This document shows, piece by piece, positions 3,001 through 51,801 of a stretch of DNA of 64,000 nt. The notes beneath the pieces are model-generated. The model saw only the letters and a list, made by a program, of their open reading frames with translations, was not told where the DNA came from and searched no databases. Every line of letters begins with the position of its first letter. Position 1 is the stretch's first letter. Position numbers and translations under genes: made by a program. Source of the DNA: Rhizobium sophoriradicis (GTDB lineage: Bacteria > Pseudomonadota > Alphaproteobacteria > Rhizobiales > Rhizobiaceae); contig NZ_RQIH01000024.1 in the NCBI RefSeq assembly GCF_003939025.1, forward strand, positions 1-64,000, written 5' to 3'.

Positions 3001-3430
3001 AGCTGCGATAATGCGGCGATCGAGATCCGTTCGCGTTCTCGTTGAACCCTGCAAAGCCCGGCCCATGGGCAAACAACCGAGACGCAACCGTGTCACCTTC
3101 CCGGTCTCCGGTCTCGCGATCTACCGCGAAAGGCTCGAGCAAAGGCGGCAGTGGCTGGGTGATACTGCCCTGACCGTCCGGCTCGGCGATCACGCCCGTC
3201 TGATGTTCCCCGTCGTGCTCGGCGAGCGCCGGCATTTCGTTGGGATCGTCGACAAGCACGCCATCATGCTTTTTTCCATCGGCAGTTTGCGCGGAGGTCG
3301 CAAGTTGAGCACGATCCGCGTACGTTTCGGCCGGCTTGCGCGGCCTTCCTTTTTCGCCGGCCGCCAACCACCGGGGAATCAGCGAATCCACCAAAGAGCG
3401 CGAAGTCCACCGACGAGCGTTGCGATACAT
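1..3430 (-). CDS. Giant secreted-type protein: N,N-dimethylformamidase-like domain, Ig-like, DUF4082, VCBS-like repeat (3' partial)
   Basis: The frame stays open from the ATG at 3430 (GAGAGG 8 bases upstream) to the left edge, giving 1,143 visible residues. Residues 1-340 are low-complexity, acidic and without a signal peptide. Residues about 345-840 resemble the C-terminal domain of the N,N-dimethylformamidase large subunit, with conserved stretches such as YRLGYYGG, NGWGG, GHDEYWS and WSGNEVYWR. Residues 843-935 are Ig-like, about 937-1090 resemble DUF4082 (IRFYKG), and the last 50 begin a VCBS/cadherin-like repeat (VLTNDTDPNAG). This order is usual for large surface or type I secreted proteins; export by a PrsDE-like system is inference. 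It is divergent from the exopolysaccharide export gene. Amidase activity is unproven. Confidence 0.85.
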   Translation of the reverse strand, partial: MYRNARRWTSRSLVDSLIPRWLAAGEKGRPRKPAETYADRAQLATSAQTADGKKHDGVLVDDPNEMPALAEHDGEHQTGVIAEPDGQGSITQPLPPLLEPFAVDRETGDREGDTVASRLFAHGPGFAGFNENANGSRSPHYRSYPGMSLIGDDPLAPYLPQSPAATASAHDSASLAGERAPSGNVVILESSPSAQASAQHGGANSLAFGMPFGVCGCGYFTSPTRILDWAHGGAMLQQDGQLQGTRLTEGPDFVSTAKRAIAASISDPLLDRNLSPLSGWRGTASWTETTALNGSLPGGGETGTGTNTKGVGILSGSVTTPPTTQRSLTTQNQAAAAAAASNAIVLENQKPGNPESEWGIVGAGSSNIEGFATDISVDNGKTISFKINTNSTNYRIDIYRLGYYGGMGARKVATMQHTGLQTQPNPLRNATTGTVDAGNWAVSASWTVPEDAVSGVYIAKLVRQDGTSGSNHIPFIVRDDSSQSDIVFQTADQTWHAYNGWGGANFYGGNGPATGQGAGRAYAVSYNRPIATRGGVGTFAGPQDYLFGAEYAGIYWLEQNGYDVSYMAGVDADRYGSLLLNHKTYIDAGHDEYWSGQQRTNVEAARDAGVNLQFWSGNEVYWRTRWGNAYSADATPYRTLISYKETWSPSASIDPSNEWTGTFRDPRLSPPAIGGGNPENSLTGQLFKVDDVGNNLQAINIPYDDANLRFWRNTSVANLQPGQTATLTKNYLGYEWDEAVDNGFDPAGLVKLSSTTVPVGTYLLDYGNTTGNGISTHNLTLYRAPSGALVFGAGTVYWTWGLSDNHDLQATPTDPRVQQAMVNLLADMGIQPGTLQSGLVASTGSTDNVAPTSVITVPATVAVGTTVTISGTAADTGGGVIAGVEVSTDNGASWHPATGDENWTYSWSPQVAGSYTIRSRAVDDSINLETPSAGRTVTVSAPNYTSLFGSATPAVVNTNDSSAVELGVKFQTSVAGTVTGIRFYKGDQDTGTHTGSLWSSTGTRLATLTFTNETTSGWQTAYFTSPVSLTAGQTYTASYHTNSGRYSTTTNYFTSNVTSGPLTAPASGNGVYRYGNNSLFPTSTFQSTNYWVDVMFTTSASNTPPTAVADAGDATEKGGVANGSGGVVASGNVLTNDTDPNAG

Positions 3431-3996
3431 GGCAGATACCTCTCGCGAGATTTGCAGGATCGAATCTATAGGATCGTTTCGTACGTCCCCTGAATTGTAG
3501 TCGAAAAACACCAGGGTATATCCTACGCCTTTCGCTCTACAGGCGGCATCCTTTGGGCAAACGGGCCGTGTTGCGTCGCGGACGCTCTAAATGCGATGCA
3601 CGAGGGCGACAATTCGCCCTCCCGCGCGAGTTTCGAAGCCGCAGCGGTGGCTAGGCCGTTTGTCATCCGGGAAAATCGACGATCCGACCAGAAAGCCTCT
3701 GCCGGCAGGATTGCGGTCCGTCCAAGCGAGCGCGCCTATTCCCGCGTGCAGAACCTGTTGATTTTCCCCGGTCAATACCTTCGCGTCGCGCCGAAGATAT
3801 ATGTTTCTACTCGATTTAGGCGGAAGTACCTCCCACCTCATCAATATTGATATGGCAAAACAAACGACCTCCACCTTCCTCAAGGCTTCGCCAGACTGCA
3901 CACTGGCGATGTAACCTCGGACTTGGCGTCCGGTGTTCAAGCAGCGTTCAAACGTATTGTATCAGCGTCCTTGTAAGAATGTTTTGCAGGCGAGAC
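3431..3996. promoter_or_regulatory. Divergent intergenic region
   Basis: These 566 bases separate the leftward giant protein from the rightward export gene. Short open frames on both strands lack convincing ribosome sites or protein-like composition, so I call no gene. There is a 12-base perfect palindrome at 3840-3851 (ATCAATATTGAT), about 145 bases before the export gene start, which could be an operator. No clear -35/-10 pair was identified. Confidence 0.45.
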
Positions 3997-5307
3997 ATGT
4001 ACATGAATCTACCACACCGCGCCCCTCGCGTGTTCCTCCGCGCGATGTCCGTCATCAGTGCACTCGTTTTTGTCGCCGGAGCTGTACCGCCAGCTCTCGC
4101 CGGTAGCTTGGCGCCACAAACGAAGATCCGCTTGACGGTCGTTCAATGGATAGCCTCCAAAGGCCAGTTTGAACGATGGGATGGGATCGGCGGCGAATAT
4201 ACGGTTTCCGATGCAGGTATCGTCTCCCTCCCCTTCTTAGGGTCGCTGGCGGTCGGCAATCTGGACAATGAGGGTCTTACCAAGGAGATCGGCAAGCGCC
4301 TTCAGGCAAAGATGGGCCTGGCCCAGGCACCTGCCGTGACCATCGAACTTCTCGAATACCCGCCGATCTACGTCGTGGGACACGTAACAACCCCGGGGCA
4401 GTATAGCTTCCGCCCCGGACTGACCGTCCTCCAATCACTGGCGATGAGCGGCGGGCCGCGTCGCGCCAAAGATCAGGAGAAAACGCATTCGACCCAACTC
4501 GTAGGAGAATTGCGCGAAATCAATCACTCGATCTTGCGCAGCACCGCGAGATTGGCGCGGCTCCAGGCGGAGATAGATGGAGCGCAGGAGATTACCTTCG
4601 ATCAGGCGACCGGCGCCGATCAGCAATTTGCCGCCGGGATATACAATGAGGAAAGGATTATCTTTAGGGCTCGCGCCAATGCGCTGGAGAGGCAGGCAAG
4701 AGCATTCACCGAATTGCGCGATCTTTTGACCACTGAGATATCGACGTTGGAAGAGAAACTGACGGGCGCAGACGACAATATCAAATCCGTCGAGGACCAG
4801 TTGCTCAGCGTCAAGTCGCTAGTTCAGAAGGGCCTGACGGTCTCGTCGAGGCAGTTGGATCTGGAACGGTTGCTGACGACTTACCGCTCCGACAAGCTCG
4901 ACCTTGTCACCGCCGTCATGCGGGGCCGCCAGGCAATCAGCGAGACGACACGGAACCTCGAGGGACTTTACGACGCACGCCGGAGCGAAGTGGCGATCGA
5001 AGCACAGTCCGAACGGGCAAGTCTCGATCAAATGAAGATGAAGCGCGACACAACGCAGAAGTTGCTCGTCGAAGACCTTGGAAGCAATGACGGCATTGAA
5101 AGCCTCGCCGAGGACCTTCCGCTTACCTTCAGCGTGACCCGTCGCAACGGAGGACAAATCGACCAGTTCCAAGCCTCGGAAACGACGACGCTGGCGCCGG
5201 GCGATGTCGTGAGGGTCGTTCAGCCTCGCATTTTGGACAGTTCGCTTCAGACCAATTCGAGCCGATCATCAGAAGCCCCCGCGCTCGCAGATCGAGCCGG
5301 CCAGTGA
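3997..5307 (+). CDS. Polysaccharide export outer-membrane protein, ExoF-like (OPX/Wza family)
   Basis: Predicted periplasmic/outer-membrane export component for the exopolysaccharide of this region. I chose ATG 3997 (AGGCGAG just upstream) because it gives an Arg-containing N-terminus, a hydrophobic stretch and an Ala-x-Ala-like signal cleavage site (ALAG near residue 35). A polysaccharide-export domain follows (residues about 40-110), then an SLBB-like strand (IYVVGHVTTPGQYSF), a long coiled-coil region rich in E, Q and L (about 165-350), and a second SLBB-like segment near the C-terminus. This order, with coiled coil between export domains, matches rhizobial ExoF rather than short Wza. At 436 residues it is near ExoF length. 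An upstream in-frame start at 3847 would place a non-signal extension in front and is less likely. Confidence 0.82.
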   Translation: MYMNLPHRAPRVFLRAMSVISALVFVAGAVPPALAGSLAPQTKIRLTVVQWIASKGQFERWDGIGGEYTVSDAGIVSLPFLGSLAVGNLDNEGLTKEIGKRLQAKMGLAQAPAVTIELLEYPPIYVVGHVTTPGQYSFRPGLTVLQSLAMSGGPRRAKDQEKTHSTQLVGELREINHSILRSTARLARLQAEIDGAQEITFDQATGADQQFAAGIYNEERIIFRARANALERQARAFTELRDLLTTEISTLEEKLTGADDNIKSVEDQLLSVKSLVQKGLTVSSRQLDLERLLTTYRSDKLDLVTAVMRGRQAISETTRNLEGLYDARRSEVAIEAQSERASLDQMKMKRDTTQKLLVEDLGSNDGIESLAEDLPLTFSVTRRNGGQIDQFQASETTTLAPGDVVRVVQPRILDSSLQTNSSRSSEAPALADRAGQ

Positions 5308-31420: not shown

Positions 31421-32464
31421 TCAGCTTTGCGCGGGGGCCGCCTGCGAAACAGCGACGTTCCGTGGCCGGCGGGGCGCCGCTGCGCGCCGCACACGGCCAC
31501 CGAGACTATTGGCAAACCACTCCACCGTGTATCCAAGACCTTCGGCAAGCGGCACCGTCGGCCGCCAGTCGAGAAGGTCCGTCGCCCGGGAAATATCAGG
31601 ACGGCGGCGCTGCGGGTCGTCCTTCGGCAGCGGCCTGTAGACGATGACGGTCTTTCTCGGCACCATTGAACGGATCATCTGGGCGAGTTCGTTGATGGTG
31701 AATTCGCCGGGATTGCCGAGATTGACCGGCATTCCGGGATTAGGCGTGACATCCATCAGCGCCATAAGACCGCCGACCAGATCGCTGACATAGCAGAATG
31801 ATCGCGTCTGCATGCCGCTCCCATAGATGGTAAGGGGTTTTCCCGAAAGCGCCTGGACGATCAGGTTGGAAACGATACGGCCATCATTCGCCTGCATGCG
31901 CGGCCCATAGGTGTTGAAAATACGCGCAACCCGAGCATCGACGCGACGGGCACGCAACATGTCGAAGCAAAGCGCTTCCGCCGCGCGTTTTCCCTCGTCA
32001 TAGCAGGCCCGCGGTCCGGTGCAGCTGACATTGCCCCGGTAATCCTCACGTTGCGGATGTTCGGCCGGATCGCCGTAGACCTCACTGGTCGAGGCCTGGA
32101 GGAAAGACGCGGCATGCCGTTCGGCCAGCGCCAGCAGGTTGCCTGTACCGGCGACACAAGTCATCATCGTGTGGACGGGGTCTGCCTGATACTGCGGCGG
32201 CGACGCGGCGCAGGCCAGATTGTAGATCTGGTCAAGCGGCTCGCCGATGTCCAGGAACTGGCAAACATCCTGTTCCACGAGCCGGAAGCGCGGATGGTTC
32301 GTCAATGGCCGGACATTGTCGCGCGAGCCGGTGATATAGCTGTCGACGCAAATGACGGAATCGCCACGGGCGAGGAGCGCGTCGCAGATATGCGAACCGA
32401 CGAAACCGGCACCTCCTGCCACCAGAACAGTCTTGCCTTTACCGCGACGATTTCCCTGCAGCAT
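31421..32464 (-). CDS. UDP-glucuronate decarboxylase-like extended SDR (second paralogue)
   Basis: 347 residues with the same landmarks as the enzyme at 15923: [53 protein letters not shown] and [11 protein letters not shown]. The sequences differ throughout (for example the region after the NAD motif), so they are old paralogues, not a recent copy. Predicted to make UDP-xylose or a related UDP-4-keto-pentose for this second cluster. Last gene of the leftward run, 12 bases after the first CgeB-like gene. Its presence suggests the two clusters can be supplied independently. Confidence 0.9.
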   Translation of the reverse strand: MLQGNRRGKGKTVLVAGGAGFVGSHICDALLARGDSVICVDSYITGSRDNVRPLTNHPRFRLVEQDVCQFLDIGEPLDQIYNLACAASPPQYQADPVHTMMTCVAGTGNLLALAERHAASFLQASTSEVYGDPAEHPQREDYRGNVSCTGPRACYDEGKRAAEALCFDMLRARRVDARVARIFNTYGPRMQANDGRIVSNLIVQALSGKPLTIYGSGMQTRSFCYVSDLVGGLMALMDVTPNPGMPVNLGNPGEFTINELAQMIRSMVPRKTVIVYRPLPKDDPQRRRPDISRATDLLDWRPTVPLAEGLGYTVEWFANSLGGRVRRAAAPRRPRNVAVSQAAPAQS

Positions 32465-32476
32465 CGATACTCTCCT

Positions 32477-33577
32477 TCAGGCTGAGATACGCTCGTAAGC
32501 TCGATTTACCGGTAGCTCCGACAGCGTCCGGGCAAATTCGCCGGCACGGGCCAGACCGGTATGGCCGTCCATCACGCGTCTCCTGGCCGCAGCGGCGATC
32601 GCCGCACGGTCGCTGTCGGCAAGCTCCGTTAGCACTGCGACGACATCTTCCGGCCCACGGGCGATGATCAAAGCTTCGCCATCCGGCAGCAACTGGTCCA
32701 GCCCCTGCCAGAAATCGCTGATAACAGGCGTTCCGCAGGCGGCGGCTTCGAACAGGCGCACGCTCGGAGACCAGCCGGCAGCGATCATGTCCGAGCGGGT
32801 CACGTTCAAGGTGAACCGTTGTCGCGTGTAAAAGCTTGCGTGCGCGGCAGGCGCCAGGTGTTCGATACGCTGCACATTGGCCGGCCAATCGATATCAGCC
32901 GGATATCGCGGTCCGGCAACGACAAAGCGCATGGACGGCAGTCGGCGCGCCGGCTCCAGAAGAAGGCGCTCAAGTGTCGGCTGCCTGTCCTGGCTGTATG
33001 TTCCGAGGTAGCCGAGATCCCAGCATTTGGGCTCGCCGGTGTCGGCATAGCGGCTCTCATCCACGGAGCAGTAGAGCGCGATTGCCCGCCGCGCACCGTA
33101 ACTGCGCTCCAACAAGGTCAACACCGTCCCTCCGGAAAAGGAAAAATAGGCATCGAACAGTAGGATCTGCCTCAGCGCTAGATATTCTTCATCGCCGCGA
33201 TCGAGCTTTGCGAGGGTGACCGGCGTGTCGATGTCGTAAAAGCAGAACCGTTTCGGCCCGAGCCTTTCGAGTTTGTCAATGAGGGCGACGCCGTCCGGAA
33301 CATAGGATCCGACGACGACGGCATCGGCCCCGCGCAGCCTGTCTCCATGAAGTCCGATCATGACGTCGACATCGGTATAATAGGCGAGATCGCAGAATTC
33401 AGGCGAGACGAGGTCGCGGTGGCTGGCGTACCAGGGCACGTCGCGTTCAAGGAACAGAATCCGGTGGCCTTCCTGCCGCAAACCCTTGATGAGGGCGCGA
33501 TAGGTCGTGGCATGACCGTTTCCCCAGGAAGAGGAAAGTGAAAGTCCGAGGAAGACGATATCGAGTGGTTTCGTCAT
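32477..33577 (-). CDS. CgeB-like glycosyltransferase, tandem paralogue A
   Basis: 366 residues, GT-B fold of the CgeB/Glyco_trans_1_2 type. It starts IVFLGLSLSSSWGNGHATTYRALIKGL and ends with the donor half: LGYLGTYSQDRQPTLERLL, FTLNVTRSDMIAAGWSPSVRLFEAAACGTPVISD and WQGLDQLLPDGEAL. The segment SVRLFEAAACGTPVISD is diagnostic of these proteins. It has no membrane or signal segment. It overlaps paralogue B by ATGA (33574-33577). Donor and acceptor unknown. The B. subtilis namesake is a spore-crust glycosylation protein, but this host makes no spores. Confidence 0.8.
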   Translation of the reverse strand: MTKPLDIVFLGLSLSSSWGNGHATTYRALIKGLRQEGHRILFLERDVPWYASHRDLVSPEFCDLAYYTDVDVMIGLHGDRLRGADAVVVGSYVPDGVALIDKLERLGPKRFCFYDIDTPVTLAKLDRGDEEYLALRQILLFDAYFSFSGGTVLTLLERSYGARRAIALYCSVDESRYADTGEPKCWDLGYLGTYSQDRQPTLERLLLEPARRLPSMRFVVAGPRYPADIDWPANVQRIEHLAPAAHASFYTRQRFTLNVTRSDMIAAGWSPSVRLFEAAACGTPVISDFWQGLDQLLPDGEALIIARGPEDVVAVLTELADSDRAAIAAAARRRVMDGHTGLARAGEFARTLSELPVNRAYERISA

Positions 33578-34665
33578 TCGGCGGCCTCCATCCGCGCGCC
33601 GAGACGCGCGCGGAAGATTTTGTCCACCACCTCGGCACGATTGACATAGGTGTGCTCTGCCAGCACGCGCATGCGCGCCCTCTGCCCGATCTCCTGCGCG
33701 GACCGGCGGGATAACGCCGCAACCAAGGCAGCGACATCCTGCCCGTCACGCGCGACCAGCACTTCTTCGTCGGGCTTGAGGAAAAGCTCGATACCCTCCC
33801 AATGGTCGGTGATGAGGCAGGCGCCGGCGCCGGCCGCTTCGAAGACCCGGGTCGCAGGCGAGAAACCGTTTTCCGCCATGCTGGCGCGCGAGATGTTGAG
33901 AACCGCCATAGGGGTTACGTTGAAAGCGTTATGATCCCCTGTCGGCACATGGCCGATATAGCGGACATTTGCGGACATCGGCTTGTCCTGCCAGCCCGAG
34001 CCGCCGAGCAGAAAGTTGCGGTCCGGCAGGCGAAACGCCGGCTCCAGGAAGAAGTGCTCGACTCGCGCCTCCCGGTCCGGCAGACGATTGCCGAGAAAAG
34101 CGAGATCGGCAGTAAAACGACCCTCCTCCGGCACCGGGTGATGCGTTTGCGGATCGAGCGCATTATAGATCGGCACGCAGTCTGCCGCCCCGACCGAGCG
34201 GTACGCGGTCACGACAGGGTCGCCTCCGCCGTAGGTCAGCACCAGATCGATTTCAGCGAGTGCACGCCGCAGCGGGTGATCCGAACATCCCTTCAGTTCG
34301 GCGAGCGTTGCGGGCGCATCGACGTCCCAGAAGATCTTCAGCGCCTGCGTCTGCGCATTACGAAGGACCTCTTCCAGCAGCAGATCGTCTTCGAAACCGA
34401 CGCCGCTTGCCTTGACGACGATATCGGCCTCAGCCGCTTCGCTCGCAGCGGCCTTCAAGGCGTCGATCGTCCCGTCATAAACGACGACCTTGCACCAGTC
34501 CGGCGGATCAATGTCGCGGTGCTTCTGCCGATCGTAGACATCGGGCTCGTAGAAAGTGATGTCGTATCCTTTCGCCGCCAGGGCTCGCAACAGACCGCGA
34601 TAATAGGTGGCAGCCCCATTCCAGTAGGCGGAGACGAGACTCGAACCGTAAAAGGCGATTTTCAT
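33574..34665 (-). CDS. CgeB-like glycosyltransferase, tandem paralogue B
   Basis: 363 residues from ATG 34665, set by the ATGA overlap with the upstream gene; a longer frame adds 53 unconserved residues. N-terminus IAFYGSSLVSAYWNGAATYYRGLL aligns with both tandem neighbours. The donor half reads LAFLGNRLPDREARVEHFF, SRASMAENGFSPATRVFEAAGAGACLITDHWEG and IELFLKPDEEVLVARDG. IFWDVDAPATLAELKG matches FYDIDTPVTLAKLDRG in paralogue A. Middle member of three consecutive homologous genes in a coupled operon. Confidence 0.82.
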   Translation of the reverse strand: MKIAFYGSSLVSAYWNGAATYYRGLLRALAAKGYDITFYEPDVYDRQKHRDIDPPDWCKVVVYDGTIDALKAAASEAAEADIVVKASGVGFEDDLLLEEVLRNAQTQALKIFWDVDAPATLAELKGCSDHPLRRALAEIDLVLTYGGGDPVVTAYRSVGAADCVPIYNALDPQTHHPVPEEGRFTADLAFLGNRLPDREARVEHFFLEPAFRLPDRNFLLGGSGWQDKPMSANVRYIGHVPTGDHNAFNVTPMAVLNISRASMAENGFSPATRVFEAAGAGACLITDHWEGIELFLKPDEEVLVARDGQDVAALVAALSRRSAQEIGQRARMRVLAEHTYVNRAEVVDKIFRARLGARMEAAE

Positions 34666-35792
34666 TCGGCTGCCTCCCGAGAGTGCAGATCCTGCGCAAC
34701 CCTCTTGCTGCCGCAGTGCGCCAGGATCGTGAAAAGTTCGTCGACGCGGTGCCGGCAGGTGTGGCGAGCCTTGATGGTCTCCAGGCCGGCGGCCGTCAGG
34801 CTCGCCGCCCGGTCGGCATCGCACAGAAGCTCACGCAGGCTTTTCTTCATCTCCGCGCCGTCGTGAACGACAAGGTAGTCGGTGCCCGGCGCAAAGAGGT
34901 GCTCGGCGTCGTCCCAGGGCGCCGAGATCAGCGGGATGCCACAAGCAAGAGCCTCGAAGATGCGGATCGTCGGGATCCCCGGCAGGTGCTCGACATATGG
35001 CCGGCGCGGAATGTGCACCGTGACCTTGTGGCGGGCAAAGGCGACGGGGACATCGGCATTGGCGATCCATCCACCGTAAGCGATGCCGGCAGCGCGCAGG
35101 GCATCGAGTGCATGATCGGGATAACGGACCCCGCGAACCGTCGTCTTCAGGCCGAGCTCCATTGCCGGGCGGATCAGGAATTCGGCAATCTCGGCGGAGC
35201 GCTCATCATCGCCCCAGTTGCCGATCCAGATGAGATCTCCGATCCTTTCGATCTCGGGCATCGGCCGAAACAGGACCTCGTCCGCCGCCTCGTGCCAGAC
35301 AAATACAGACTTGCCCCAGCCGGCGCGAAGATAACGTTCGCGCAACGTCTGCCCGAAGGCCAGCACGCCGTCATAGTCCTCGAGGATAAGCGCCGCGATA
35401 TCGCCTTCAGCGGAAACCGCCCGATGATGCGTGTCATGGAAGAGCAGGGTAAAGGCCGCGCCATTGCGCCGGATGCAGCCGAGACGTTCGACCAGTTGCG
35501 GGTCCGTCCATTCGTGGACGATCACCACATCAGCATCGGCCAGTGCTGCTTCATGATCGAAGTCCCTGGCGTAGATCTGCGAGCGGTGCTGCGGAAAGGC
35601 CGCATGGAACTTCTCGACCGCAGCCGGGCCCTGATCCCTCACAAGGTTGGTGCGGCTCCAGGCATCCTCCGGCTCCAATGCCAGCGTCTCATGACCGCGC
35701 CGCTGGAGATCGCGCATGACGCCACGAAGGAAATGCGCGTTGCCATGGTTCCAGTCGGAAACCAGCGAGTGGGTATAAAAAACGAATTTCAT
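34662..35792 (-). CDS. CgeB-like glycosyltransferase, tandem paralogue C
   Basis: 376 residues from ATG 35792, two bases after the preceding stop. It begins FVFYTHSLVSDWNHGNAHFLRGVM. The donor half is DLIWIGNWGDDERSAEIAEFLI, VTVHIPRRPYVEHLPGIPTIRIFEALACGIPLIS and DAEHLFAPGTDYLVVHDG. It is more diverged from A and B than they are from each other: HDTHHRAVS replaces the DIDTP-type loop. So it probably uses a different donor or acceptor. Confidence 0.82.
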   Translation of the reverse strand: MKFVFYTHSLVSDWNHGNAHFLRGVMRDLQRRGHETLALEPEDAWSRTNLVRDQGPAAVEKFHAAFPQHRSQIYARDFDHEAALADADVVIVHEWTDPQLVERLGCIRRNGAAFTLLFHDTHHRAVSAEGDIAALILEDYDGVLAFGQTLRERYLRAGWGKSVFVWHEAADEVLFRPMPEIERIGDLIWIGNWGDDERSAEIAEFLIRPAMELGLKTTVRGVRYPDHALDALRAAGIAYGGWIANADVPVAFARHKVTVHIPRRPYVEHLPGIPTIRIFEALACGIPLISAPWDDAEHLFAPGTDYLVVHDGAEMKKSLRELLCDADRAASLTAAGLETIKARHTCRHRVDELFTILAHCGSKRVAQDLHSREAAE

Positions 35793-35794
35793 GA

Positions 35795-36898
35795 TCACTC
35801 CGCTGCTGTCGAGAAGGTGCGGCCGGATATGCCGGAATAGATCCCGCACATGGCCTGCGCCTGCGCCGCGAGGTTGAAGCGGGCAGATTGCCGGCGCGCC
35901 GCCAGGCCGAGCGCGACACGCTGTTGCGGATCCTCGGCAAGATTGTTGAAGGCGTCGGCGAAAGCGTTCGGATGCCGCGGATCCGCAAACAGGGCAGCAC
36001 CTTTCCATATCTCGCGATAGGTGGGGATATCGGAGAGCACCAAAGCCGCGCCCGCCCTTGCCGCTTCCAGGGCCGCGAGCCCGAAGGGCTCGTAGAGGGA
36101 GGGTGACGCCACGACGGCCGCCTGCCGCATCAGGATCTTCGTCCGCTCATGGGAAAGCTCGCCTTGATGGTCGGCGTGGCGGAACGGCTGGTATTGATCA
36201 TTGGGACCACCGTTGGCACCCACCGCCAGCACCCGCCAGCGTGTCAAGGCTGCGGCCGCATCCAGCGCGGCGCCGTTTTTTCCCTCATCCCACCAGCGGC
36301 CGGCAGCGACAACGAAGTTCCGTTTGGGCTCATCGGAAGCAACGAGCGCGCTCGAATTATAAACAACGTGAAGGTTCTGGATCGGTCCATAGGCCGCTTC
36401 CATCGCCTCCGCCTGGCTGCGACTCGGCGCAATTACAGCGTCTGCGCGGGCGAAGCCTGCCTGGTTCAGCCGATATTGCCATTGCCAGTTCCGCGGCACC
36501 TCGGTGCCGCGTACGGCGGCGAACCAGGTCACCACACAGGAATGGCACACCACAATTACCGGCAGCTCCGTTTGCAGGTCCGCGGCCTGCGACGGCAGAT
36601 TGAGATGCAGAAGATCGGCCTTTTCGCGACGGGCGAGATCGGCGATGAGGCGCGGCACTTCGGCAACAGACTTTTCGTCCTGCACCATCCAATCGAGCGG
36701 AGCGTCCAGCCAGACGAGTTTCCCAAGCCGCCTAGCCTCGGCAATCTTGTCCTCCGCGGGCATGGGACCAAAACCGGCGAAGACGATTTCAATGTGCTTC
36801 GCCTTCAGGGCTGCCGCCAAATCCATGGCGTAACGCCACACGCCACCGATGGCATCAAGCGTCATCATCACACGGCTGTGCCCGTTCTGTCCGGTCAT
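35795..36898 (-). CDS. Family 4 glycosyltransferase (GT-B)
   Basis: 367 residues. The start MTLDAIGGVWRYAMDLAAAL has the glycine-rich acceptor loop of GT4 enzymes; the donor half is FVVAAGRWWDEGKNGAALDAAAAL and AAVVASPSLYEPFGLAALEAARAGAALVLSD, with the EPFGLAALE two-Glu motif. It overlaps the upstream fusion gene by ATGA. It is the fourth consecutive glycosyltransferase of this cluster, and the only one of family 4. Expected cytoplasmic. Confidence 0.92.
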   Translation of the reverse strand: MTGQNGHSRVMMTLDAIGGVWRYAMDLAAALKAKHIEIVFAGFGPMPAEDKIAEARRLGKLVWLDAPLDWMVQDEKSVAEVPRLIADLARREKADLLHLNLPSQAADLQTELPVIVVCHSCVVTWFAAVRGTEVPRNWQWQYRLNQAGFARADAVIAPSRSQAEAMEAAYGPIQNLHVVYNSSALVASDEPKRNFVVAAGRWWDEGKNGAALDAAAALTRWRVLAVGANGGPNDQYQPFRHADHQGELSHERTKILMRQAAVVASPSLYEPFGLAALEAARAGAALVLSDIPTYREIWKGAALFADPRHPNAFADAFNNLAEDPQQRVALGLAARRQSARFNLAAQAQAMCGIYSGISGRTFSTAAE

Positions 36899-38937
36899 GC
36901 CGACGCCTTCCGCTTTTCACTGCGGATGCGCCGACCGCCGAAACGATTGGCGATCAGCCATTCAGCAAGGTGTCGCAGACCGTCTCGCCATCCGACGCCC
37001 GCTTTCCAGCCGATCTCGGTTTCAAGTTTTCCGGTATTGGCAACGAAATAGAACTGATCGCCGGCCCGCCACGGGCCGAAATTCGTTTCAACAGAATATC
37101 CCGTAAGCTCTTCGATCTCGCGTAGCACCGCGAGGACGCTGACCGCATTGGACGGGCCTCCTCCGAGGTTGAAGGCATTGCCGGCGAGCCGATCGATATT
37201 GGCGAGCAGCAGGCGGTAGGCGGCCACCGCATCATCCACATGCAGGATGTCCCGCACCTGCTTGCCGCTGCCGTAGACCGAAATGGCTTCGCCGCCAAGC
37301 GCACGGATGAGGAAATGCGCCACCCAGCCTTGGTCCTCGGTGCCGAATTGACGCGGCCCATAGATGCAGCTCATGCGCAGGACGGCAGCCGGTATGCCGT
37401 AGGACTTCGCATAGTCGAGGATATATTGGTCGGCGACACCCTTAGAGCACCCGTAGGGTGTGCAGAAATCAAGCGGCCGATTCTCGGCAATGCCTTGCGC
37501 CCGCACGATCTCATCTTCGGGGACATAGCGATCATCAAGCTCGACCATCCGCAGATCGTCCAGAGCACCATAAACCTTGTTGGTGCTTGCGAAGATGACC
37601 GGCGCCCGCCGGCCTGCCTTGCGGACGGATTCCAGCACGTTGAGCGTACCGCGGGCATTGGTTTCGAAATCTTGCAGCGGATCGGCGAGGCTGGTGGTCA
37701 CGGCTGTCTGCGCGGCATAGTGGAAGACGGCTTTGGCATCCTTGAAGGCTGCTTCGATCCCCACCAGGTCGCGAACATCGGCAAGAACCGGATGCACCCG
37801 TGCTCCATGCCGTTCGATCAGCCATGAGAGGTTCTGATCGACGCCCGAACGTCCCAGATTGTCGAGAATAATGACGTCTTCACCGTCGTTCAACAGACTG
37901 TCGGCGAGATTGGACCCGACGAATCCGCTGCCGCCGGTCACGACAACAGGCGCGGCATCGGAGGCGAGATGGGGCGCAGCGAGCGCCGCAACCTCCTCCA
38001 GCCTGTTGATGCCTCCCTCCATCAGAAGGCGGGCAAGCAGCTTCGGCCTATTGTCGTGGGTGACTGCGCCGAGATGATAGTGCCGCGGATCGAACCACAG
38101 ACCTTCCTGAACCGGCACATCCGGCGGCACATCGCCCCATGAATACCAATAGATGCGGTCGGCCCGGACGTTGAGCGCCTTGATGAAGCGCCGTGCCTGT
38201 TCGATCTCGTCATTGCGCCAGGTCGAATAGCCGGTTTCGGTAATCCATATTTCGGCTTCGGCATTATAGCGATCGATGATCCCGCGCATCTCGCCGAGAT
38301 GCATGTCCCAACCGCCCCACGTTGCTTCCTCACTGTCCCAGGTCCCGGGGAAACCGTGGAAGCCGACGGCATCGACGACACCGAGCACGCCGCGCGTGCC
38401 CATCAGGTTGAGCCAATAGGGATCGAAGGGGCACGGGCCGCCGAGCACCGGTTTGTAGCCTCGCTGCTTGGCCCAATAGGCGGCACCGCCGACCATCTCG
38501 CAGAAGAGCAGAAAATCGCTGTCCTGGCGCCAATCCCAATCGAGCAGATTGTTCGGTTCGTTCCAGAGCTCGATGTGGCGGAAATAGCCGCCGTAGCGCG
38601 TCAGGATATGATCGACGAAGTCGGCGTAGGATTTGAGATCGAGCGGCGCGCCTGAAGACTTCCCCGTCCTGGAAAGGCATGGCGGCGTGTAGTGGATGCA
38701 GGGCAGAAGATCGATTTCGCTGCCGACGCGTGGAATGAACCAGTCGAACCATTCCTGCCCGCCCGGCGCCAGATATTCGGCCCAGGATAGATGTGTCCTG
38801 AGATAACTCGCGCCGCTCGCCAGTATATCCGGCAGTAGGGTCTCGGTCCGCTCATGTTCTCCCGGTCGGAACCATTCGACGAATCCGAAGCGCCGAGTCT
38901 CCCGCTGGCTGGATGCTCGAGAGCCGGCCTTGTTCAT
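36895..38937 (-). CDS. Fusion: clan-A glycoside-hydrolase-like domain plus NAD-dependent nucleotide-sugar epimerase/dehydratase
   Basis: 680 residues in one uninterrupted frame. Residues about 15-310 resemble a (beta/alpha)8 clan GH-A hydrolase: IELWNEPN holds the acid/base Glu127 after Asn126, and IWITETGYS holds the nucleophile candidate Glu234. Residues 330-665 are an extended SDR: TGGSGFVGSNLADSL (334-348), a FASTNKVYGAL serine-type segment, Tyr495-x3-Lys499 in PYGCSKG, and YGPRQFGTEDQGWVAHFLIRAL. No signal peptide, so both halves should act in the cytoplasm, odd for a hydrolase. Flanked by ATGA overlaps. Possible roles are making and trimming a glycoside, or channelling a nucleotide sugar. 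Confidence 0.85.
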   Translation of the reverse strand: MNKAGSRASSQRETRRFGFVEWFRPGEHERTETLLPDILASGASYLRTHLSWAEYLAPGGQEWFDWFIPRVGSEIDLLPCIHYTPPCLSRTGKSSGAPLDLKSYADFVDHILTRYGGYFRHIELWNEPNNLLDWDWRQDSDFLLFCEMVGGAAYWAKQRGYKPVLGGPCPFDPYWLNLMGTRGVLGVVDAVGFHGFPGTWDSEEATWGGWDMHLGEMRGIIDRYNAEAEIWITETGYSTWRNDEIEQARRFIKALNVRADRIYWYSWGDVPPDVPVQEGLWFDPRHYHLGAVTHDNRPKLLARLLMEGGINRLEEVAALAAPHLASDAAPVVVTGGSGFVGSNLADSLLNDGEDVIILDNLGRSGVDQNLSWLIERHGARVHPVLADVRDLVGIEAAFKDAKAVFHYAAQTAVTTSLADPLQDFETNARGTLNVLESVRKAGRRAPVIFASTNKVYGALDDLRMVELDDRYVPEDEIVRAQGIAENRPLDFCTPYGCSKGVADQYILDYAKSYGIPAAVLRMSCIYGPRQFGTEDQGWVAHFLIRALGGEAISVYGSGKQVRDILHVDDAVAAYRLLLANIDRLAGNAFNLGGGPSNAVSVLAVLREIEELTGYSVETNFGPWRAGDQFYFVANTGKLETEIGWKAGVGWRDGLRHLAEWLIANRFGGRRIRSEKRKASA

Positions 38938-40037
38938 GAAACCAGCCCCCGTTCTTCAAGTTGCCGCTTCATCTCGGCGCCACGGTCGATCGCTCCTGTC
39001 TGCCGGACCCAGTCGACGAAAGGAGCGAGCGAATTTTCGAGATGGTATTTGGGCTCGAAGCCGAGCAGTTCACGTGCCTTGGAGATATCGGCAAAGCAAT
39101 TGCGTATGTCGCCGGAACGCGCCTTGTTCATGATATCGGGGGCGATCTCCGGCACGCCCATCGCGTCGGCAAGAAGCATTGCGACGTCGGCGATCGAATA
39201 GGCCAGGCCGCTGCCGATATTGATCACGTGGCCCGACGCCGCGGGCTTCTCCAGAGCCAGCCGGAAGGCCCTCGCCACGTCGCGCACATGGACGAAATCG
39301 CGCCGCTGCTTGCCATCCTCGAAGATCATCGGCGGCTGCCGGTTGGCGAGGCGCGAGCCGAAATTTGCGAGCACGCCGGTATAGGGGTTGGAAAGGGCTT
39401 GGCCGGCGCCGAAAACGTTGAAAAGTCGCAGCGCGACGGCATCCAGGCCATAGGCTTCGCCGAAGATCAAGACCTGCTTTTCCTGGGCATATTTTGTCAA
39501 GGCGTAGATCGAAGCCAGGTCGACCGGCTTCTCCTCGTCGGTGGCGACGGGCGTCAACGGCTCGTCATCCGGGCCGAGCGGATCCCATTGGCCACGCTTG
39601 ATATGGTGGCTTCGCCGCCTGACATAGCCGAGCCGTCTGCCGTCCCCGGTCAGATAAAGCCCTTCTCCATAAACGCTCATGGAGGAAGCGACGACGATCT
39701 TTCGGACAGGCATGCCGATCATGGCTTCGAGCAGCACCGCCGTTCCGAGGTCGTTGCAGCTGACGTAGCGGGCAATTTCATACATTGATTGTCCGACGCC
39801 GACTTCGGCGGCAAGATGAATGACGCCATCGACATTCGCGAGCGCCGCGCGCACCGCGTCCTTGTCCCTGACGTCGCCGCGAATGACCTCGGCACCCTCC
39901 GGCACGACAAGCTCGGCGTCGGCATGCACTTGGTCGATCAAGGCATCGAGGACGCGCACCTCATAGCCGCTTTGCAGAAGTTCTTCAGCAACATGGCGGC
40001 CGATGAAGCCGCACCCTCCTGTTATCAAGATCGTCAT
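38934..40037 (-). CDS. NAD-dependent nucleotide-sugar epimerase/dehydratase
   Basis: 367 residues, extended SDR. TGGCGFIGRHVAEELL is the NAD motif, HLAAEVGVGQSMYEI the substrate loop, ASSMSVYGEG the serine segment, and Tyr-x3-Lys is in IYALTKYAQEKQ. RLFNVFGAGQALSNPYTGVLANF and DFVHVRDVARAF are C-terminal landmarks. The GVGQSMYEI loop recalls dTDP-L-rhamnose 4-epimerase-like enzymes; the substrate is not certain. First large gene of the leftward operon; ATGA overlap with the fusion gene. Confidence 0.88.
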   Translation of the reverse strand: MTILITGGCGFIGRHVAEELLQSGYEVRVLDALIDQVHADAELVVPEGAEVIRGDVRDKDAVRAALANVDGVIHLAAEVGVGQSMYEIARYVSCNDLGTAVLLEAMIGMPVRKIVVASSMSVYGEGLYLTGDGRRLGYVRRRSHHIKRGQWDPLGPDDEPLTPVATDEEKPVDLASIYALTKYAQEKQVLIFGEAYGLDAVALRLFNVFGAGQALSNPYTGVLANFGSRLANRQPPMIFEDGKQRRDFVHVRDVARAFRLALEKPAASGHVINIGSGLAYSIADVAMLLADAMGVPEIAPDIMNKARSGDIRNCFADISKARELLGFEPKYHLENSLAPFVDWVRQTGAIDRGAEMKRQLEERGLVS

Positions 40038-40218: not shown

Positions 40219-41205
40219 ATGAACATTGCGGCGAGGCCCGCGGGCGAGCTGATGCGGGCGGCGATCGTGACCGGTCCCGGTCATGTTTCGGTCGAGACTC
40301 GTGCCCTGCCGGAACCGGGGCCGGGCCAGGTCAGGGTGAGACTGGAAGGCTGCGGCGTCTGCGCTTCGAACCTCACGCCCTGGGCCGGGCCGGAGTGGAT
40401 GACTTTTCCGACGGAGGCGGGCGGTCTCGGGCACGAGGGCTGGGGTGTCGTGGACGCCATAGGCGACGGCGTCACTGACCTGCAAAAGGGAGACCGGGTC
40501 GCGGCGCTATCCTACCATGCCTACGCCACGCACGACCTCGCGGATGCCTCGATGGTTGCCGTGCTGCCAAGGGAATTGGATGGTCAGCCGTTTCCGGGGG
40601 AGCCGCTCGGATGCGCCATGAACATCTTCGGCCGCAGCGGTATCAAAAGCGGCCAGACCGTCGCCATCATCGGCGTTGGTTTTATTGGCGCCCTCCTGAC
40701 ACGGCTCGCCGCGGCAGCGGGAGCAAGGGTGATCGCCATCTCTCGGCGGTCCTACTCGCTCGAGGTCGCAAAGCGGATGGGCGCTGCCGAGGTCATCCCG
40801 ATGGACGATCACTGGCGCATCATCGAGGACGTCAGGACGCTGACGGACGGATGTTTCTGCGACTGCGTCATCGAAGCAGTAGGCAAACAATGGCCGCTCG
40901 ACCTGGCGGCCGAGCTTGCCAAGGAGCGGGGCCGGCTTGTGATCGCCGGCTATCACCAGGACGGCCCTCGCCAGGTGAACATGCAGCTCTGGAACTGGCG
41001 CGGGCTCGATGTCATCAATGCTCACGAGCGTGATCCCGCCGTCTATATGAGGGGCATTCGCGAGGCGATAGAAGCGGTGCGCCAGGGCCGGATCGACCCC
41101 CAGCCGCTTTATACGCACATCTATCCCCTGGAGCGGCTGGACGAAGCACTGAATACCACACGCGACCGGCCTGACGGTTTCCTGAAAGCCTTGGTGCAAT
41201 ATTGA
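40219..41205 (+). CDS. Zinc-type medium-chain dehydrogenase/reductase
   Basis: 328 residues. The catalytic-zinc ligand regions GCGVCASN and GLGHEGWG, the NAD-binding IIGVGFIGALLTRLAAAAGA and late substrate loop are those of the MDR superfamily; the structural zinc four-Cys loop is absent, as in sorbitol/threonine-like or bacterial sugar dehydrogenases that have lost it. Start ATG 40219 follows GGAGGA. Divergent from the leftward glycan operon and coupled to a Gfo/Idh enzyme. It likely oxidises or reduces a sugar or polyol hydroxyl for the same pathway. Confidence 0.88.
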   Translation: MNIAARPAGELMRAAIVTGPGHVSVETRALPEPGPGQVRVRLEGCGVCASNLTPWAGPEWMTFPTEAGGLGHEGWGVVDAIGDGVTDLQKGDRVAALSYHAYATHDLADASMVAVLPRELDGQPFPGEPLGCAMNIFGRSGIKSGQTVAIIGVGFIGALLTRLAAAAGARVIAISRRSYSLEVAKRMGAAEVIPMDDHWRIIEDVRTLTDGCFCDCVIEAVGKQWPLDLAAELAKERGRLVIAGYHQDGPRQVNMQLWNWRGLDVINAHERDPAVYMRGIREAIEAVRQGRIDPQPLYTHIYPLERLDEALNTTRDRPDGFLKALVQY

Positions 41206-42239
41206 TGGATAAGCTGGTTTCGGCACAGACGGCGACCGCCCTCAAACAGGTGAAGCTCGGTTTTCTCGGCGTCGGTTGGATCGGCCGGCAGCGCATGAAA
41301 GCGGTGCTCGACAGTGGCTTTGCAGAGGCCGTCGCCATTGCCGACCCGTCGACCGAGATGATGCGCGAGGCCTGTGCCCTTGCACCCGATGCCGTGATCG
41401 CCGCCGATCTGGAGGAGCTGCTCGATCAGCAGCTCGACGGCATAGTCATTGCCACGCCGAGCGCCAGCCATGCCGCGCAGTCCATCCGCGCGCTCGAGGC
41501 CGGGGTTGCCGTCTTTTGCCAGAAGCCGCTCGGGCGAACGGCATCGGAAGTCAGGGCTGTCGTCGATGCCTCCAGGGCGGCGAACAGATTGCTTGGGGTC
41601 GACCTTTCCTATCGCCATACGGAAGGCATGCGGCAGATCCGTGAGCTCATCCGCTCCGGTGCACTTGGAAAGGTATTCGCGGCGGACCTGACTTTCCATA
41701 ACGCCTATGGTCCCGACAAGGCCTGGTTCTACGACAAGACACTGTCCGGCGGCGGCTGCCTTATCGATCTCGGGGTTCATCTGATCGACCTCGTCTTATG
41801 GTGTCTCGATTTCCCATCCGTCGCGACCGTCACGAGCGAGTTGAGAGCCGGCGGAAACCGCCTCGGGGAAAGCCGCACCGTCGAGGACTTTGCCGCGGCG
41901 ACTCTCACACTCTCCGGCGGTCAAGTGGTGCGCGTGACTTCGTCGTGGCGACTTCAGGCCGGCTGCGACGCCGTGATCGGCGCCGATTTCTTCGGAACGG
42001 AAGGAGGCGCCTCATTCAGAAATGTCGACGGATCGTTCTATGACTTCACCGCTGCAAAGCTATCCGGCACGTCCCGCCAAAGCCTGGCCGAGCCGCCAGA
42101 GGAATGGGGCGGACGAGCCGCCGTCGATTGGATGAGGAGACTAGCCCGAGGTCAACGCCACGATCCTGCCGCTCAAGAGTTCGTCGCGGTCGCGGAGGTC
42201 ATCGACCGCATCTACCAGCAGGCGGATACGATCTCATGA
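41205..42239 (+). CDS. Gfo/Idh/MocA-family oxidoreductase
   Basis: 344 residues from ATG 41205, which shares one base with the stop of the dehydrogenase (TGATG). N-terminal GFLGVGWIGRQRMKAVLDSGF is the NAD(P) motif; FCQKPLGRTASEVRAVVDA holds the family lysine (QKP instead of the usual EKP). GGGCLIDLGVHLIDLVLWCLDF carries the His of the active site. Together with the MDR enzyme it forms a two-step redox module for a sugar. Its 3' end overlaps a convergent small gene by six bases. Confidence 0.9.
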   Translation: MDKLVSAQTATALKQVKLGFLGVGWIGRQRMKAVLDSGFAEAVAIADPSTEMMREACALAPDAVIAADLEELLDQQLDGIVIATPSASHAAQSIRALEAGVAVFCQKPLGRTASEVRAVVDASRAANRLLGVDLSYRHTEGMRQIRELIRSGALGKVFAADLTFHNAYGPDKAWFYDKTLSGGGCLIDLGVHLIDLVLWCLDFPSVATVTSELRAGGNRLGESRTVEDFAAATLTLSGGQVVRVTSSWRLQAGCDAVIGADFFGTEGGASFRNVDGSFYDFTAAKLSGTSRQSLAEPPEEWGGRAAVDWMRRLARGQRHDPAAQEFVAVAEVIDRIYQQADTIS

Positions 42240-49818: not shown

Positions 49819-51801
49819 ATGGATATGACCCGCATCCGAGACCACATGGTAGAACATCACGTCGTGGGCCGCGGCATCCATGATCAAAACGTCACCAGGG
49901 CGATGCGCATGGTGCCGCGCGAAAAATTCGTCGATCCGGGCTTCGAGGAGTTCGCCTATGAGGATGCGCCCTTGGCGATCGGCGAGGGTCAGACAATCTC
50001 GCAGCCTTTCATCGTTGCCCTGATGATCGAAAAGGCCGATCTGGATGCGGGTGACAAGGTTCTCGAGGTCGGAACCGGTTCCGGATACGCCTCTGCCCTC
50101 ATCAGCCGGATCGCGCGACACGTCTATTCCGTCGAGCGCCATGAACGGCTGGCGCTTCAGGCCAGAGAACGGTTTGAAAAGCTGGGCTATCGCAATATCG
50201 ACGTCCGGGTGGGCGACGGCAGCAAAGGCTGGGCTAAAGCTGCTCCCTTCGATGCGATTATCGTTTCCGCTGGCGCACCCGAGGTGCCGGCCGCTCTGAA
50301 GGAGCAGCTGGATCTCGGCGGGCGGCTCATCATCCCGGTCGGCGGCGGCGAGGAACAGCGCCTGAAACGCATCACACGCACGGGGCCGGCCACCTTCGAG
50401 GAGGAAGATTTGGGCGGCGTGCTCTTCGTCCCGCTGATCGGCGAGGATGCCTGGACCGCGGCCCATCCAATGTACACGGCAACAGCCCTGTCGTCGCTCA
50501 CGGAAGAAGTATCCAGCAAACTGATCTCGGCAGCGGCGGAAGAATTTTCATCGATCGAGGACAAGAGCTTTGCCACCCTTTTCGATCGATTTGCTGACAG
50601 CCGCATTGTTCTGCTTGGGGAATCCACCCACGGGACAGCCGAATTTTATCAGACGCGGGCTGCCATTAGCCGGCATCTGATCGCACATCATGGGTTCAAT
50701 CTTATTGCAGTCGAAGCGGATTGGCCGGACGCTTCCGCAATAGACCACTGGATCAATGGCCAGAGACCGACAGACGGCGAGCCATTCAGCCGTTTTCCCC
50801 GGTGGATGTGGCGGAATCTGGAGTTTTCGCGGTTCATCGGCTGGATGAAGGAGGAAAACGAACGGGGCAAGGCATCGCACAAGGATCCGATGCGGTTCTA
50901 TGGCCTCGATCTCTACAACATGTCAGGGTCGATCCGCTCCGTCCTTCACTATCTCGAAAATGTCAGTCCGGAGACAGCCAAGATCGCCAGGGAGCGCTAC
51001 GGCTGCCTCAGCCCCTGGCAGAGCAATCCCGCCACCTATGGTCGGGCCGTGCTGACCGAAGCCTACAGATCATGCGAGGACGCAGTGCTAAAGCAATGCA
51101 CCGAACTTCTGGCCCGATCGCTGAATGACGCGGCCTCGGACAATGATGACTTTCTGAACGCCGTCCAGTCCGCAAGATTGCTCGCCGCCGCCGAACGATA
51201 TTATCGCGTCATGTATTACGGCGGTGCCGAAGCCTGGAACCTGCGCGACTCTTATATGGCAGACACGGTCGAGCACCTTCTCGACTTTCACGGACCAGCG
51301 GCAAAGATCATCATCTGGGCTCACAACTCACATATCGGCGACGCCCGCTACACAGACATGGCAACGGCTCGCGACGAACTCAGCCTCGGTCAGCTGTGCC
51401 GGCAGCGTTTCGCCGGGATGACAAGCCTGATCGGGCTGGGAACACATTGCGGCGAAGTGATCGCCGCCGACGATTGGGACGGGCGGGCGGAGAGGAAGCA
51501 ACTCAACCCGTCGCTCCCGCAGAGCTACGAGCGCTTATGTCACGACGCCGCAAAGCCGCAATTTCTCCTCGACCTCAAGGCCGATGAGGAACTGCACGCA
51601 AGCCTGGTCGAACAGCGGCTTCAGCGCTTCATCGGGGTGATCTACAGGCCGGAATCCGAACGGCTGAGCCACTACATGTCGACATCCCTGTCGCGGCAAT
51701 ACGACGCCTTCATCTGGTTCGACGAAACGCACGCGCTGTCACCGCTTGTCGCTCAGCAGTCCGGGAAGGGCGATCAGGAAACCTTCCCTTACTGTTTCTA
51801 G
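49819..51801 (+). CDS. Fusion: protein-L-isoaspartate O-methyltransferase plus erythromycin-esterase-like domain
   Basis: 660 residues in one frame; start ATG 49819 follows GGAGG. Residues 1-215 are a complete PIMT (Pcm): VPREKFVD, AIGEGQTISQPFIVALM, VLEVGTGSGYASALI (81-95, SAM motif I) and DAIIVSAG. It uses SAM to repair isoaspartyl residues. Residues about 245-650 are an erythromycin-esterase-like (EreA/B) domain: IVLLGESTHGTAEF with the Glu and His needed for catalysis, VEADWPDA, and WAHNSHIGDARY. It is not likely to be a macrolide resistance gene by itself; the Ere-like fold is widespread in bacteria with unknown substrates. Confidence 0.9.
   Translation: MDMTRIRDHMVEHHVVGRGIHDQNVTRAMRMVPREKFVDPGFEEFAYEDAPLAIGEGQTISQPFIVALMIEKADLDAGDKVLEVGTGSGYASALISRIARHVYSVERHERLALQARERFEKLGYRNIDVRVGDGSKGWAKAAPFDAIIVSAGAPEVPAALKEQLDLGGRLIIPVGGGEEQRLKRITRTGPATFEEEDLGGVLFVPLIGEDAWTAAHPMYTATALSSLTEEVSSKLISAAAEEFSSIEDKSFATLFDRFADSRIVLLGESTHGTAEFYQTRAAISRHLIAHHGFNLIAVEADWPDASAIDHWINGQRPTDGEPFSRFPRWMWRNLEFSRFIGWMKEENERGKASHKDPMRFYGLDLYNMSGSIRSVLHYLENVSPETAKIARERYGCLSPWQSNPATYGRAVLTEAYRSCEDAVLKQCTELLARSLNDAASDNDDFLNAVQSARLLAAAERYYRVMYYGGAEAWNLRDSYMADTVEHLLDFHGPAAKIIIWAHNSHIGDARYTDMATARDELSLGQLCRQRFAGMTSLIGLGTHCGEVIAADDWDGRAERKQLNPSLPQSYERLCHDAAKPQFLLDLKADEELHASLVEQRLQRFIGVIYRPESERLSHYMSTSLSRQYDAFIWFDETHALSPLVAQQSGKGDQETFPYCF

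Follow-up and report, generated by a model that had tools for sequence, protein, structure and literature searches.

A single gene, at positions 36895-38937 of the 64,000-nucleotide stretch of Rhizobium sophoriradicis DNA analyzed here (assembly GCF_003939025.1, contig NZ_RQIH01000024.1, positions 1 to 64,000; called "the window" below), encodes a protein that joins a barrel of the glycoside hydrolase clan A (GH-A) type, as its structure model places it, to a short-chain dehydrogenase/reductase (SDR) domain that resembles CDP-tyvelose 2-epimerase (TyvE). This fusion is genuine and conserved. A homologous barrel is found elsewhere as a stand-alone protein whose sequence is circularly permuted, and the two forms are distributed over different sets of genomes with little overlap. 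We put at about even the chance that the fused protein would catalyze two reactions in the cytoplasm as part of a conserved glycoconjugate pathway. Each of its parts belongs to a known kind, and a limited literature search found no description of their combination, nor of an alternation between a barrel in cis and a permuted barrel in trans. The features of the fused gene are as follows:

36895-38937, minus strand: fused gene, GH-A-type barrel plus TyvE-like SDR, 680 amino acids (reading frame, Pfam, PDB matches, AlphaFold)
37978-38937, minus strand: barrel domain, residues 1-320, predicted (beta/alpha)8 (AlphaFold; best fold match PslG)
36955-37947, minus strand: SDR domain, residues 331-661, in which T452-N453-K454, Y495, K499 and Q536 match catalytic and substrate residues of TyvE (PDB matches, alignment)
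38557-38559, minus strand: codon of Glu127 (WNEPN, just past beta-4), predicted acid/base (model; Glu in 80/80 loci)
38236-38238, minus strand: codon of Glu234 (ITETG, within beta-7), predicted nucleophile (model; Glu in 80/80 loci)

The fused gene and its conservation

The reading frame starts with ATG and runs for 680 codons without an internal stop, so that both domains do lie in one frame as a preliminary description of this DNA had stated (it gave no strand). At its start it shares 4 bases (ATGA) with the stop of the upstream SDR gene, and at its end 4 bases with the start of the glycosyltransferase family 4 (GT4) gene at 35795-36898, an operon-like layout on both sides. Pfam places Epimerase (PF01370) over residues 331-592 (E 2e-50) and assigns no family to residues 1-320. 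Kyte-Doolittle hydropathy reaches a maximum of 1.35 over the whole protein (19-residue window) and of -0.49 within the first 40 residues (15-residue window), and by these maxima, without a dedicated signal-peptide program, the protein has neither a signal peptide (in agreement with the earlier description) nor a membrane segment.

A scan of genome contigs gave 521 relatives, of which the best 80, ranked with the fused protein as query, are all fused; 52 aligned relatives are 64-89% identical to it. Since these 80 loci were picked with a fused query, the set is biased towards fused copies, and the all-fused count is partly a matter of selection and uninformative on the frequency of the layout; in the less biased genome samples described below, an intact fused barrel is present in 27 of 47 genomes with the epimerase. 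The gene lies on complete plasmids, with 100% identity in R. etli IE4803, R. etli IE4771 and Rhizobium sp. Kim5, and in R. etli CFN 42 it is located on p42b (RHE_RS22270). The frameshift or stop between the domains that would have undone the fusion is absent from the frame. An assembly error or chance fusion is ruled out by the 80/80 fused loci together with these complete plasmid records. A phage origin of the fusion was also considered and rejected: no phage record spans 80% of the fusion, and all five listed places (of 247) fall within the SDR half.

The barrel domain

AlphaFold, given 53 aligned proteins, builds residues 1-320 as an eight-stranded (beta/alpha)8 barrel with a mean predicted local distance difference test (pLDDT) score of 85.1 and a predicted template modeling (pTM) score of 0.86; the full-length model (pLDDT 84.0, pTM 0.79) has the same barrel strands and the SDR. 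The strands are residues 18-20, 45-51, 76-82, 121-125 (beta-4), 162-165, 190-195, 229-235 (beta-7) and 261-265. WNEPN begins at residue 125, which makes its glutamate Glu127, and TETG begins at residue 233, which makes its glutamate Glu234; N126-E127 thus follow beta-4 and E234 lies in beta-7, which is the clan GH-A pattern; the preliminary description had taken the two as the catalytic glutamates expected for that clan. By this model residues 1-320 form a barrel of clan GH-A type whose two glutamates occupy the canonical places. Six residues of the predicted site (R47, N126, E127, H194, E234 and W264) are identical in 80/80 fused loci.

Comparison of the model with solved structures by Foldseek gave 276 PDB chains at E <= 0.001, with PslG (a GH39 enzyme) at ranks 1-3 (best match 5bx9, E 7e-14) and a GH2 and GH5 enzymes among the other best rows. 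VIA also ranks PslG 1-3 with Z values of 24.6-24.9 (9g17: Z 24.9 over 295 residues with a root-mean-square deviation of 3.6), followed at rank 4 by the GH39 entry 5jvk and, within 2 Z units, by beta-glycosidases of the GH1 type. Because other clan GH-A-type enzymes follow PslG with so little drop in Z, the comparison points clearly to the clan but not to one family. Assignment to GH39 by sequence was tried and is unsupported by the Pfam and PDB profile searches: the Pfam GH39 model PF01229 does not match the window barrel and matches 3 of 53 barrel members weakly (best E 0.049), and the best PDB profile match to the barrel has an E of 0.73.

The epimerase-like domain

The second half has the motifs of a full extended SDR, as first described: GGSGFVG (G335-xx-G338-xx-G341) and Y495-xxx-K499 within the PF01370 match. 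The closest solved structures to residues 331-661 are the CDP-tyvelose 2-epimerases 9rl0 (E 2e-81) and 1orr (E 1e-77), and the next SDR is at 5e-40. For the 9rl0 enzyme, TaTyvE, the published description names Thr124, Asn125, Lys126, Tyr164, Lys168 and Gln205 (PMC13098431). The corresponding residues T452, N453, K454, Y495, K499 and Q536 are invariant in 53/53 aligned proteins, and the VAM segment of TaTyvE (residues 83-85) is replaced by TAV (T411-A412-V413), equally invariant in 53/53. Because of TAV in place of VAM we call the domain TyvE-like rather than a TyvE; our best guess from these residues is that the SDR half would be a C2 epimerase of a nucleotide sugar.

A circularly permuted stand-alone barrel

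The barrel query also matched stand-alone proteins of about 310 residues, in two pieces and in reversed order: these proteins begin at beta-4 and finish with beta-1 to beta-3. The genome from which the window comes encodes one on another contig (locus L109, 6951-7925). In 25/25 distinct permuted proteins (gathered by BLAST without a start motif, and including one from genome G708) the match runs from residue 1, with M or V and a strand running into WNEPNN (beta-4). Profile comparison, for which 23 permuted proteins gathered with a start-motif pattern were used, gave two pieces when unrotated (176 columns with a score of 196 and 106 columns with a score of 84) and a single piece of 279 columns with a score of 270 after the halves were swapped. 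The stand-alone form is a natural circular permutation, established at the level of sequence.

The upstream stretches of permuted genes that were printed share no sequence that might be a remnant. In G371 and G325 the permuted match contains a single TGA, late in the alignment and in a part where the query is longer than the proteins. An ancestral canonical stand-alone barrel was considered and rejected: the one candidate from outside the class, in G676 (L158), is distant at 25% identity, has an N-terminus that is hydrophobic by eye and is not an orthologue, and the proteins of G537 (L130) and G430 (L139) are distant glycosidase-like proteins too. No natural circular permutation within clan GH-A was found in a literature search that reached few subscription papers; PMC13366581 deals with a CE4 domain.

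Distribution of the fused and permuted forms

Among the 47 SDR-bearing genomes, 26 have the intact fused form only and 18 the permuted form only; the window's genome has both, G043 (76% complete) has neither, and G371 has a permuted barrel and a fused copy that is cut by a contig end. The family sample (199 genomes, SDR orthologues at E <= 1e-100) contributes 34 of these (20 intact fused only, 12 permuted only, 1 both and 1 neither), and the class sample (387 genomes, E <= 1e-80) contributes 13 besides the window's own (6 fused only, 6 permuted only and G371). Most sampled genomes with a stand-alone epimerase carry a separate permuted barrel, and the family and class samples hold no permuted barrel without the SDR. 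Further permuted barrels in a phylum sample of 397 genomes lie outside the 47, the SDR not having been searched for there. A table of the 42 genomes whose SDR locus was usable and whose state was known (fused only in 25, permuted only in 15, both in 1 and neither in 1) gives a Fisher p of 2.5e-9; left out of this table and of the tree were G371, for its contig cut, and G073, G102, G174 and G153, which lack a usable SDR locus. On the best SDR tree the fused state must have changed 6 times or more. In G153 the SDR is split by a stop; L031 (Gellertiella hungarica) and L177 (from G153, apparently the same genome) have an in-frame TAA in the SDR half and an intact barrel half.

These counts also bear on a rival explanation of the barrel, namely that it has no catalytic role and serves as a scaffold, or as a carbohydrate-binding domain, to place the epimerase or the glycosyltransferases. 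The fused copies L111 and L134 lack both glutamates and still have the domain in frame, so the domain can persist without its site; two genomes counted above as permuted only (G042 and G493) have such a fused domain, and both carry a permuted barrel. It is this permuted copy elsewhere in both degenerate cases, the retention of both glutamates in 25/25 distinct permuted proteins and the identity of the six site residues in the 80 fused loci that make an idle barrel improbable in our judgment.

An inositol-phosphate synthase gene (cut-off E <= 1e-60) distinguishes the two kinds of genome, as considered below; it is also present in G043 and in 5 family-sample genomes without the SDR. At locus L109 a 582-amino-acid protein (3328-5076, minus strand) is encoded alongside the inositol-phosphate synthase and the permuted barrel, with matches in L110, L113, L114 and L171; it has no PDB match at E <= 1, and its only Pfam match is at chance level (E 0.03).

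The surrounding gene cluster

The genes that accompany the fusion are the following, with the number of the 80 fused loci in which each was found:

38934-40037, minus strand: second SDR (SDR2), GalE-like; directly upstream of the fusion in 79/80 loci (cluster comparison)
35795-36898, minus strand: GT4 glycosyltransferase; directly downstream of the fusion in 79/80 loci
34662-35795, minus strand: CgeB-like glycosyltransferase (PF13524); 80/80 loci
33574-34668, minus strand: CgeB-like glycosyltransferase (PF13524); 79/80 loci
32477-33577, minus strand: CgeB-like glycosyltransferase (PF13524); 78/80 loci
31421-32464, minus strand: UDP-glucuronate decarboxylase-like protein (UDP-xylose synthase, UXS); 76/80 loci (2b69 match, E 5e-105)
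40219-41205, plus strand: zinc-type dehydrogenase (ADH), divergent, unassigned, NCBIfam matches all far below cut-off; 78/80 loci
41202-42239, plus strand: Gfo/Idh/MocA-type oxidoreductase, best NCBIfam match inositol 2-dehydrogenase, far below cut-off; 74/80 loci

The second SDR and the GT4 gene are each present, at any position, in 80/80 loci, a TIGR04290 methyltransferase in 65/80 and a UDP-glucose dehydrogenase in 12/80; neither an inositol-phosphate synthase nor a permuted barrel was found in any of the 80. These are counts of best BLAST matches, and loci cut by contig ends were counted too. Of the five other genomes of the genus that were listed, one has a barrel match, so the cluster is accessory in the genus. 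No flippase, polymerase or transporter is among the cluster genes themselves in annotated copies, and four glycosyltransferases with a supply of UDP-xylose and without those export functions suggest a glycoconjugate assembled inside the cell. In CFN 42 the UXS end of the cluster faces cytochrome genes.

Much the same genes accompany the permuted barrel. The S. meliloti 1021 pSymB region at 242.4-258.0 kb contains a stand-alone SDR, SDR2, UXS, four glycosyltransferases, ADH, Gfo/Idh, inositol-phosphate synthase and the permuted barrel, and in S. medicae the permuted gene is annotated "beta-xylosidase" and adjoins a histidine phosphatase gene. A limited literature search found nothing on this cluster, nor on CgeB with an epimerase in rhizobia; PMC12542648 is about another gene.

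Three further observations are recorded here for completeness. In L111 (4734-6029, minus strand) and L115 the fused gene is separated from the GT4 gene by one for a B12-binding radical SAM protein. Another two-domain frame lies in the window at 49819-51801 (plus strand), whose positional counterpart in IE4803 is annotated as a protein-L-isoaspartate O-methyltransferase/erythromycin esterase domain protein. Two contigs of genome G000 have SDR gene pairs with identical scores (C29 2928-4694 and C67 9697-11463), which probably reflect a duplicated sugar-nucleotide segment.

Proposed function

We suggest that the SDR half of the proposed two-activity enzyme would invert a nucleotide sugar at C2 and so supply the neighboring glycosyltransferases. 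The barrel would work as a retaining glycosidase, or as a transglycosidase, on an oligosaccharide intermediate that the cluster itself produces, possibly a xyloside or a xylose-containing glycoconjugate intermediate, and would cleave, trim or transfer a glycosyl unit on it. The fusion would keep these reactions side by side; other lineages would rely on the permuted protein, acting in trans, for the barrel reaction. The preliminary description had offered a cytoplasmic glycoside-processing step or a hydrolase fold reused as a transferase; cytoplasmic glycoside processing, whether by hydrolysis or by transfer, is still the best reading.

A different role for the same fold would be housekeeping, with the barrel a hydrolase that disposes of oligosaccharide that is misprimed or in surplus and the fusion merely securing equal expression. 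The best fold match, PslG, has proposed roles in release and clearance according to two reports (PMC9075953, PMC6813494), which also locate it to the inner membrane and the periplasm; the fused protein, on the other hand, has no export signal by hydropathy, and the strictness with which it is kept in the operon speaks for a main-path step instead. We consider the housekeeping role rather unlikely.

More broadly, a clan GH-A-type enzyme may exist in two permuted forms that substitute for one another in a single cytoplasmic pathway: the canonical form in cis, ahead of the C2-epimerase-like SDR, and the form permuted at beta-4 in trans. The barrel would in that case be a (trans)glycosidase of biosynthesis and not a degradative hydrolase. 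We hold this only tentatively, and several facts weigh against it and against the proposal made above for the fused protein. The tree offers only 3 independent pairs on well-supported branches (6 on all branches), and although on average 2.9 of the 3 are opposite in direction and 0.1 show no difference, 3 pairs cannot bring a sign test to significance (median p 0.25); the Fisher value is inflated because near kin are counted. The fused and permuted barrels share about 26-35% identity, and the window's genome holds both. In R. etli IE4803 the UXS end of the cluster adjoins surface-polysaccharide genes (noeL-2, an LPS (lipopolysaccharide) biosynthesis protein and glycosyltransferases), and by its gene order the window has such genes at that end too, so a link to an exported polysaccharide is possible. 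Finally, in the 199-genome family sample the inositol-phosphate synthase is present in 13/13 permuted-barrel genomes versus 0/20 fused-only genomes, so that the two forms may mark two products, one of them made with home-made inositol. That one barrel form replaces the other is accordingly something that we infer and do not demonstrate.

Taken at face value, this last split and the presence of both forms, at two loci, in the window's genome would mean that the fused and permuted barrels serve two products (with and without inositol synthesis) and not one step, an explanation that is compatible with a two-activity role for the fused protein. Both cluster types nonetheless have the SDR, SDR2, UXS, GT4, three CgeB-like glycosyltransferases, ADH and Gfo/Idh in common (as seen, for example, in S. 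meliloti pSymB and S. medicae), and we regard the two-product explanation as less likely than not.

Gene fusion and operon conservation across Alphaproteobacteria tie a glycosidase fold to nucleotide-sugar metabolism, in model symbionts among others (R. etli CFN 42 with the fused layout on p42b, S. meliloti 1021 with the permuted layout on pSymB), and link genes that are annotated separately as "epimerase" and "beta-xylosidase". An intracellular role for a glycosidase in glycan synthesis becomes testable by point changes, and the alternation of fused and permuted forms is a natural experiment on barrel permutation.

Comparison with known systems

The window SDR keeps the catalytic and substrate residues of the CDP-tyvelose 2-epimerases (TaTyvE 9rl0 and 1orr); TaTyvE is a single-domain chain with VAM, whereas the window SDR is fused and has TAV. 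The Sinorhizobium pSymB-type "beta-xylosidase" has a homologous barrel and the same surrounding cluster genes, but in its permuted form it stands alone, with a stand-alone SDR and an inositol-phosphate synthase as partners. GH70 and GH13 belong to a clan other than GH-A. GH70, when set against GH13, is an established natural case of a circularly permuted glycoside hydrolase barrel, and is in this respect like the two forms found here.

By analogy, the nearest functional precedent for the barrel would be PslG, the endoglycosidase of the Psl operon of Pseudomonas aeruginosa, which shares the barrel fold, the two glutamates and the setting in a polysaccharide-synthesis cluster. It differs in that identity is 15-17% and in that the window barrel lacks an export signal by hydropathy, is fused to an epimerase and has no Pfam GH39 match. 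The PslG papers give its catalytic glutamates as E165 and E276 (PMC9075953) and describe them as required for normal product levels (PMC6813494, PMC9075953), and PssZ, PgaB and BcsZ are listed as further glycoside hydrolases in polysaccharide-synthesis operons (PMC6813494). The pairing of a hydrolase fold with an epimerase, which the preliminary description had found paradoxical, is real; in view of these glycoside hydrolases inside polysaccharide-synthesis operons it is less paradoxical than was claimed, although those precedents are not cytoplasmic fusions, as the window protein would be.

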